Both the position numbers and the translations under genes were made by a program. The notes below the pieces were generated by a model. It had not been told where the DNA came from, made no database searches, and saw nothing but the letters and a program-made list of their open reading frames with translations. A DNA stretch of 64,000 nucleotides from Pseudomonadota bacterium (GTDB lineage: Bacteria > Pseudomonadota > Gammaproteobacteria > Burkholderiales > Thiobacillaceae): assembly GCA_021826065.1 (NCBI GenBank), contig JAKADY010000009.1, forward strand, positions 1 through 64,000. Reading direction: 5' to 3'. Positions 1 through 33,762 of the stretch are shown piece by piece (within the stretch, counting starts at the first letter, position 1; each line of letters begins with the position of its first letter).

Positions 1-85
1 CTTGTACGCCCGTCTGGCTGCGTTGCTCCTCCTTGCAGGGAGCCACCCTGCGGCGTCGTCGCGCCTTGCCAGCCGGGCGTACAAG
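1..85. repeat. Long inverted repeat (REP-like hairpin) at window edge
   Basis: Bases 1-18 and 68-85 form an inverted repeat (17 of 18 positions), with CTTGTACGCCCG at the left and CGGGCGTACAAG at the right, enclosing about 50 bp. It abuts the MITE-end sequence at 87-120. It is non-coding on context, although one reading frame is open through it. It resembles interspersed hairpin repeats rather than a gene. The left boundary may lie outside the window. Confidence 0.6.
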
Positions 86-86
86 C

Positions 87-120
87 CCGCTTTCGGGCGC
101 GTTCAACTGCGGTTTTTAGG
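87..120 (+). repeat. MITE-like terminal sequence upstream of fleS
   Basis: These 34 bases are an exact reverse-complement match to 33421-33454, the left end of the MITE-like element described there. The outer end reads GGTTTTTAGG and stops 13 bp before the fleS start codon. The final AGG plus the next base forms an AGGA that could act as a weak ribosome binding site. The other end of this copy is not visible, either because it lies left of the window or because the internal part differs. Confidence 0.75.
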
Positions 121-5664: not shown

Positions 5665-5810
5665 TTAACGTGAAAGTCGCGCGAGCGACGCACGACGCTC
5701 CCCTCGCCCGCTTGCGGGAGAGGGGTTGGGGGTGAGGGAACCGTTCATGGCCGGTACAAGCGTTTTCATGGGCGGGGGCGGCTCAACGGCCATGAACGGT
5801 TAGCCTGAAA
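5665..5810 (+). repeat. Composite hairpin repeat (DUF559-type hairpin plus 60-bp palindrome)
   Basis: The fliG-fliH gap holds a composite repeat related to 33620-33760. The first half has a GC hairpin (CCCCTCGCCCGC, then GCGGGAGAGGGG, near 5699-5725) of the same type that bounds the nuclease cassette in ygiQ. The second half has a perfect 14-bp inverted repeat, ACCGTTCATGGCCG at 5740-5753 and its complement at 5787-5800. It interrupts an otherwise coupled flagellar operon. No open frame of interest is present. Confidence 0.75.
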
Positions 5811-32852: not shown

Positions 32853-33404
32853 TCAACCGCGCTTCGGTCCGCGCCAGGTCGGCTCCGGCTGGCCTGCGGC
32901 ACGGTTGATGGCGCGGGCCAGGACGAAGAGCAGGTCGGAGAGGCGGTTGAGATACTGGCGCAGGTAAGGGGAGAGGGGCGCCTCTTCTCCTAGGCGGACC
33001 AAGCGGCGCTCGGCGCGCCGGCACATGCTGCGGCAGACATGGGTCAGGGCGGCGGCGCGGGTGCCGCCGGGCAGGACGAACTCCTTGAGGGGTGGCAGGC
33101 TCGCGTTCAAACGGGCGATGGCCTCGTCGAGCCTCAACACGTGCGCCTCGCCCAGCTGCAGGTGGTCGGGCAGGGCGAGCTCTCCGCCCAGGTCGAAGAG
33201 GTCGTTCTGGATCTCTGTGAGGAGGGTGCGCACTTCTTCGGCGAGGTCTTCCGTCAGCAGCAGCCCCAGCAGGCTGTTGAGTTCATCGACCTCGCCCAGG
33301 GCCTCGATGCGTGCGTCGTATTTCGGCACCCGCCGTCCGTCGGCCAGGCCCGTGTTGCCGTCGTCGCCGGTGCGGGTAACGATGCGGCTCAGTCGGTGAC
33401 CCAT
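32853..33404 (-). CDS. PduO-type cob(I)alamin adenosyltransferase
   Basis: A 183-residue enzyme that adenosylates corrinoids to adenosylcobalamin. The N-terminal TRTGDDGNTGLADGRRVPK (ATP-binding), GEVDELNSLLGLLL and C-terminal RRAERRLVRL and YLNRLSDLLFVLAR segments match the family. A MITE-like element begins 16 bp upstream of its start codon, so the native promoter is separated or replaced. Confidence 0.94.
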   Translation of the reverse strand: MGHRLSRIVTRTGDDGNTGLADGRRVPKYDARIEALGEVDELNSLLGLLLTEDLAEEVRTLLTEIQNDLFDLGGELALPDHLQLGEAHVLRLDEAIARLNASLPPLKEFVLPGGTRAAALTHVCRSMCRRAERRLVRLGEEAPLSPYLRQYLNRLSDLLFVLARAINRAAGQPEPTWRGPKRG

Positions 33405-33420
33405 GTTGTCCTCATTTCAA

Positions 33421-33555
33421 CCTAAAAACCGCAGTTGAACGCGCCCGAAAGCGGCGGAGCGTGATCACCCTCTGGGAGAGTATGACTGGAGGCAAAATCT
33501 CTTGCATCATCGAGCTGTTACGAAGCCATAAGAGCGGTCAACTGCGGTTTTTAGG
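33421..33555. mobile_element. MITE-like element with 18-bp TIRs and TTCAA target duplication
   Basis: A 135-bp element has perfect 18-bp terminal inverted repeats, CCTAAAAACCGCAGTTGA at 33421-33438 and its complement at 33538-33555. It is flanked by identical pentamers TTCAA at 33416-33420 and 33556-33560, a likely target-site duplication. It encodes nothing and would need a transposase in trans. Its left 34 bp recur exactly, inverted, at 87-120. The right half differs inside the TIR, which suggests a deleted derivative of a larger element. Confidence 0.82.
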
Positions 33556-33560
33556 TTCAA

Positions 33561-33762
33561 CACTCATGGCCGGCACAAACGCTATCATTGCTCGGGGGCG
33601 GACTTTGGGCCGTGAATGGTACCGTGAAAATCGGCGCGGCTAATCATGAAGCGCCCCTCCCCCGCAGGCGGGGGAGGGGGTGGGGGAGAGGGAATTGTTC
33701 ATCGCCGGCACAAGCCTTTTCATGGGCTCAAGCGGCTTATCGGCCATGAACGGTCAGCGTCG
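33561..33762. repeat. Composite palindromic/hairpin repeats next to the MITE
   Basis: The rest of the 350-bp gap holds two copies (33561-33620, 33696-33754) of a 60-bp palindromic unit of the form TTCATGGCCGGCACAAGC through GGCCATGAACGGT. Between them is a GC hairpin, CCCCTCCCCCGC with GCGGGGGAGGGG (about 33654-33679). The arrangement from 33620 parallels 5665-5810. The end of the second unit overlaps the stop codon of the DUF1841 gene. No open frame is convincing here. Confidence 0.75.

Follow-up and report, generated by a model that had tools for sequence, protein, structure and literature searches.

The Correia elements (CREE) of Neisseria are, like the element described here, short, non-autonomous and gene-adjacent, and their ends differ from those of the present family. 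Their target duplication is similar to the -10 promoter box (PMC9330008), as are the duplications ATAAT and ATCAT reported below, but CREE differ in that the duplication is most commonly the 2-bp TA and in that promoters have been demonstrated for them (PMC10969869). The Chunjie MITE of Geobacter uraniireducens, in the summary given by a review (PMC10969869), is 235 bp at full length, has shorter forms from 178 bp, and occurs in ~38 copies that have direct repeats and conserved ends; all are intergenic except one, which lies within an operon. As far as that description goes, which is the only basis of the comparison, Chunjie is similar to our family in size and behaviour (PMC10969869). Among autonomous elements, IS1247 of the IS1380 family is listed as 1672 bp with a 5-bp duplication (PMC3281130), similar to the 1634-1642 bp and 5 bp of the autonomous relatives found here. 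ISPme1 and ISEcp1 of the same family have an outward promoter (PMC9330008), whereas none was seen in our family. Text searches of the literature on the end sequence and on fragments of the hairpin tip returned no relevant paper; the kind of MITE is already known, and within the literature searched its sequence is new.

The window, that is, the whole 64,000-nucleotide stretch of DNA that was analysed, contains a 135-bp element between the genes for a cobalamin adenosyltransferase and a DUF1841 protein. It is a genuine, formerly mobile MITE. We are highly confident that it is non-autonomous and derives from an IS1380-like insertion sequence; its insertion would have been in trans, and the internal deletion probably came later. 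The features of the window that bear on this are as follows.

1-120, minus strand: end of a long-form copy from this family, truncated where the contig begins, with the inner hairpin intact
32853-33404, minus strand: cobalamin adenosyltransferase gene (PF01923, TIGR00636), start codon 16 bp from the element
33416-33420, no strand: left copy of the target-site duplication, TTCAA, which is also the duplication of other copies
33421-33438, plus strand: perfect 18-bp terminal inverted repeat CCTAAAAACCGCAGTTGA, gene-proximal end, corresponding to the 3' end of the insertion sequence
33421-33555, minus strand: non-autonomous element, 135 bp, short (internally deleted) form, with the transposase-start side at 33555
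33440-33459, minus strand: scar of the lost ~100-bp palindrome, where the remnant of the direct repeat CCCGCYTTCGG is now a short hairpin (from an alignment of 40 copies)
33465-33479, minus strand: subterminal palindrome TCTCCCAGAGGGTGA at position 77 from the distal end, family consensus TCACC-N5-GGTGA
33538-33555, minus strand: perfect 18-bp terminal inverted repeat, gene-distal end
33556-33560, no strand: right copy of the target-site duplication, TTCAA
33754-34191, minus strand: DUF1841 gene (PF08897), the upstream neighbour, which is likewise upstream of the adenosyltransferase gene in the related genomes examined

Positions 33416-33560 consist of TTCAA, CCTAAAAACCGCAGTTGA, 99 bp, TCAACTGCGGTTTTTAGG and TTCAA, which places 135 bp between the outer ends (33421-33555) and 99 bp between the inner ones. 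The inverted repeat extends 2 bp into the target duplication. A perfect 18-bp inverted pair spanning less than 500 bp appeared in 0 of 100 simulated 64-kb windows of the same dinucleotide content. The first-pass annotation had described perfect 18-bp repeats 135 bp apart with TTCAA on both sides, an element without coding capacity and a distance of 16 bp to the adenosyltransferase start codon. These observations were reproduced: the repeats lie at 33421-33438 and 33538-33555, no open reading frame of at least 80 aa was found inside the element, and the A of the ATG is at 33404. The element had also been called intact, which is correct for its ends but not for its interior, where ~100 bp present in most family members is missing. 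The second exact end sequence in the window, at 103-120, is part of the copy at the contig start. In Rfam the window had no match, and the long forms and the window copy gave only a chance-level match to mir-155.

The genome from which the window comes (G000) is a 2.74-Mb draft assembly of 74 contigs and contains about 50 copies of the family. The end sequence was matched 93 times at no more than two mismatches, and its reversed control 0 times. Perfect 5-bp duplications flank 30 of the 40 complete copies, where the chance expectation is 0.0018 per pair. The targets fit WTNAW in 31 of the 32 tabulated duplications (e.g., ATAAT, ATCAT, TTGAA and TTCAA): position 2 is T and position 4 is A in all 32, and A or T occupies positions 1 and 5 with one exception. 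The identification as a MITE with a 5-bp duplication also held when the genome was searched for copies that do not end at the terminal repeats or lack such duplications: many genomic copies are bounded by the repeats, with 5-bp repeats outside, and sister species have empty sites. Thus, the 40 complete copies, the 30 perfect duplications, the WTNAW targets and the four empty sites described below identify a formerly mobile MITE. Viral contigs and phages contained 0 copies. The plasmids gave one weak match to the 236-bp form in Polaromonas and a weak match to the hairpin tip alone in Caballeronia.

Related genomes were searched for empty sites with the flanks of copies joined through a single duplication. 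Four other copies (L193, L202, L210 and L225) have empty sites in sister species. The genome G003 gave gap-free, continuous matches across the junction for L202 (86% identity), L210 (83%) and L193 (78%). The site of the short-form copy L225 is empty in G002 (76%, aligned), and G003 has a continuous match over the same stretch. The uninterrupted L202 site in G003 reads GTATAATCCTTGCATG; therefore, the L202 insertion used the ATAAT of a conserved TATAAT located just upstream of a gene. The gap-free empty sites in G003 show that insertion followed the divergence of the species. The hits in G002 and G003 share their coordinates with hits in Burkholderiales assemblies (CALHRD01 and CALAMX01), which makes the organism most likely a betaproteobacterium of that order. 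At the window locus itself, G001, G002, G003 and G016 have no element before the adenosyltransferase gene, and those relatives with enough upstream sequence retain the DUF1841 gene there. Divergence of the leader prevented an exact alignment of the empty site for the window copy; the relatives are simply without the element.

A 57-bp hairpin repeat (CGTTCATGGCCGG...CGGCCATGAACG) is present in the window at 5742-5798 and 33696-33752 and elsewhere at L201:629-684 and L227:201-257. In L201 and L227, a MITE copy lies directly at the TTCAT with which this repeat starts, so the uninterrupted copies of the repeat serve as further empty sites.

The end sequence of the family is present in at least 112 stretches across many genomes. 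Two autonomous elements with the same ends around a single gene were found, one of 1634 bp with an ATGAT duplication (L063) and one of 1642 bp with a GTGAG duplication in Paraburkholderia elongata (L125). The gene product is a DDE transposase of 513-514 aa that scores above the cut-offs for DDE_Tnp_1 and DDE_Tnp_1_4 (PF01609/PF13701). The best-matching family by far is IS1380 (NF033539), at 131-160 bits and below the curated cut-off of 180; therefore, these proteins represent a divergent subgroup, filed as IS1380-like and not as IS1380 proper. The relatives also differ from the IS1380 family (IS1247, ISPme1, ISEcp1) in that their ends carry the GCAGTTGA-type inner half, and in that the target is WTNAW. 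The transposases contain Y-x2-R-x3-E-x6-K around YRDRADAENNFDELK, which fits the signature of IS4-type transposases. Related ends (CCTATTTCCGGCAGTTGA / CCTAAATCCGGCAGTTAC) occur at seven loci of G184, where the 5-bp flanks are equal or nearly so, and in L283 the exact left end adjoins a transposase fragment. The derivation of the MITE from IS1380-like elements is supported by the existence of autonomous elements, L063 and L125, with the same ends and the same duplication length.

A transposase encoded elsewhere, on which the first-pass annotation had supposed the element to depend, is thus supported by autonomous relatives in other proteobacteria, but the search of the own genome with the terminal repeat returned no parental insertion sequence. 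A matching transposase was found neither in G000 nor in three genomes of the same genus. The copies at contig ends run on into MITE sequence in nearly all cases, and the idea that they hide an autonomous element was rejected for nearly all of them. At two single ends inside contigs (L179 and L199), other DNA follows a partial or degraded copy. The 74-contig draft could lack a collapsed insertion sequence. Since no matching transposase was seen, mobility in this lineage is deduced from the copies and the empty sites. For the same reason the copies are probably immobile now, the transposase having presumably been lost. In the sequence of events that we propose, a DDE transposase supplied in trans would have recognised the CCTAAAAACCGCAGTTGA ends and moved the element by cut-and-paste. 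The element, probably in its 236-bp form, would have entered the 5' leader of the adenosyltransferase gene at a TTCAA, producing the 5-bp duplication. Its inner palindrome of ~100 bp would then have been lost between the short direct repeats flanking it, an order of events that is presumed for this copy; such a deletion would have occurred several times within the family.

The autonomous and the non-autonomous elements share a feature besides their ends. In the autonomous elements, TCACC-N5-GGTGA starts 77 bp from the 5' end (L125, L283, the L274 group, L277 and L288) or, in L063, at 88, so that five of the six distinct autonomous lineages having the palindrome have it at the same offset. It covers the transposase start codon in these elements, e.g., TCACCCAATGGGTGA. 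In the MITEs of ~234 bp, which come from many genera, the palindrome starts at 75-77 in 29 of 32 rows when one mismatch is allowed; the five loop bases are variable and the ATG is usually gone. Beyond the ends and this palindrome, no convincing similarity was found between the interior of the MITE and the autonomous elements. The shared palindrome at position 77 indicates that the MITE most likely arose from its parent by deletion, with the first ~91 bp retained, the transposase start region included. Its survival in non-coding copies suggests a putative binding site for the transposase or a regulator. On its own the element is ordinary; the family allows autonomous and non-autonomous forms to be compared. 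The parts kept after loss of the transposase gene, namely the ends, the position-77 palindrome and the inner hairpin, are candidates for what IS1380-like movement or regulation needs in cis. The family also offers sites that are empty in sister species, palindromes that were deleted repeatedly, and a WTNAW preference that includes a conserved TATAAT upstream of a gene.

Most copies in G000 are 233-237 bp long; seven, the window copy among them, measure 135-139 bp. The long form contains an inner palindrome of ~97 bp between the direct repeats CCCGCCTTCGG and CCCGCTTTCGG. In the short forms a single merged repeat is left, which in the window copy (33440-33459) is missing 3 further bases. The second subfamily (long L187 and L205, short L200 and L226) underwent the same kind of loss at repeats of its own. 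One deletion might have founded a lineage of 135-139-bp elements whose transposition reached all seven sites, and indeed the seven copies are of near-equal length, each has its own target duplication, and L200 and L226 cluster in the tree and could be one transposed short lineage. The tree, which was built on 114 shared columns and has few well-supported branches, requires six changes for the short forms, and a single short-form clade was rejected both for all seven copies (p-AU 3e-51) and for the five of the main subfamily (p-AU 0.023). The nearest long copy is different for each short copy except L200 and L226, and the junction of the window copy differs by 3 bp from those of the other short forms. 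We therefore consider a single mobile short lineage rather unlikely. The simplest reading is that an unstable palindrome was deleted recurrently: the short copies probably lost it independently and repeatedly, and the deletions presumably took place in situ, after insertion.

The origin of the mobilising activity and the role of the element beside the gene admit other readings as well. The only IS1380 gene of G000 (C8:19499-20809; L228:1979-3370) is intact, encodes a transposase of 463-468 aa, and has ends (ACCTGAATCCGTGG) that likewise start with CCT, so it might mobilise the MITEs in trans. Its inverted repeat ACCTGAATCCGTGGTCG lacks the GCAGTTGA half that, in some form, is common to all the autonomous relatives of the MITE, and no target duplication was recognisable by eye in its sequence. 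From the different ends, we judged this transposase a very unlikely partner; an IS1380-like transposase of the kind found in the autonomous relatives is preferred. As for the gene, the element might have been co-opted as a terminator, attenuator or promoter of the adenosyltransferase. It lies only 16 bp from the start codon, and its 135-nt transcript is predicted to form a very stable fold (-53.7 kcal/mol, z = -5.0) whose stem ends in the U run GGUUUUUAGG, leaving the ribosome-binding region ATGAGGACAAC before the ATG outside the fold. Neither a sigma-70-like outward promoter nor a standard terminator consensus was found in the window copy, so the outward promoter considered in the first-pass annotation was not borne out. 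Copies stand at many unrelated sites, and the element at this site is kept in 0 relatives. A control function is accordingly improbable, and the effect of the element on the adenosyltransferase gene is most likely small or nil.

The inner parts of the family are unexpectedly well conserved across many bacteria. The inner region forms a single long hairpin in 32 elements of 233-237 bp from beta- and gammaproteobacteria (Thiobacillus, Hydrogenophaga, Candidatus Thiodiazotropha and others). When the complete structure with its ends is counted, 30 pairs were changed on both sides as against 20.0 ± 1.9 in shuffles, and 195 cells were changed on both sides as against 59 ± 6 in shuffles and 40-55 in slid controls; 26 of the 30 doubly changed pairs are in the inner hairpin. 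Selection is a candidate cause of this covariation, which could also be explained by the repair of imperfect palindromes. As judged from these alignments, we offer only tentatively the possibility that the ~234-bp family carries two selected cis modules, the position-77 palindrome as a putative transposase or regulator site and the covarying hairpin. No Rfam family was found for the MITE form of the hairpin.

The hairpin model was compared with 398 Pseudomonadota genomes and matched seven besides G000, with rough E-values. The hairpin lies between the ends of this family in G067, G075 and G080, in a repeat with other ends (AGAACCTATCTCAGTAG...CTACTGAGATAGGTTCT) in G171, and as solo hairpins sharing the tip only in G085, G279 and G325. 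The tip, GCGTTGC...CTTGC...GCGCCTTGC, thus turns up again in a MITE-like repeat whose ends differ and in solo hairpins from other proteobacteria, and the hairpin may be a module taken up by unrelated small elements or one on which they converge.

Several minor observations were made on elements related by their ends or hairpins. The resident IS1380 gene of G000 lies 1 kb from a long MITE copy. In G003 / CALAMX01, four loci (L104, L107, L126 and L132) contain elements of 356-625 bp with the same ends as the MITE; transposase fragments were looked for in these G003 elements and none was found. A Treponema metagenome assembly (L088, 2508-2609) has three tandem copies of the end sequence, in the same direction and 42 bp apart. 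The model matched at least nine places in G171, and the five that were read (L327, L334, L341, L347 and L351) are a different small element with AGAACCTATCTCAGTAG ends and the same tip (GCGTTGCTCGTCCTTGC...GCGTCCTCGCGCCTTGCC). Solo long hairpins with unrelated stems and the same tip motif occur in other proteobacteria (L330, L335, L336, L343, L299 and L092), and the solo hairpins with this tip are possibly a widespread unnamed structured repeat.
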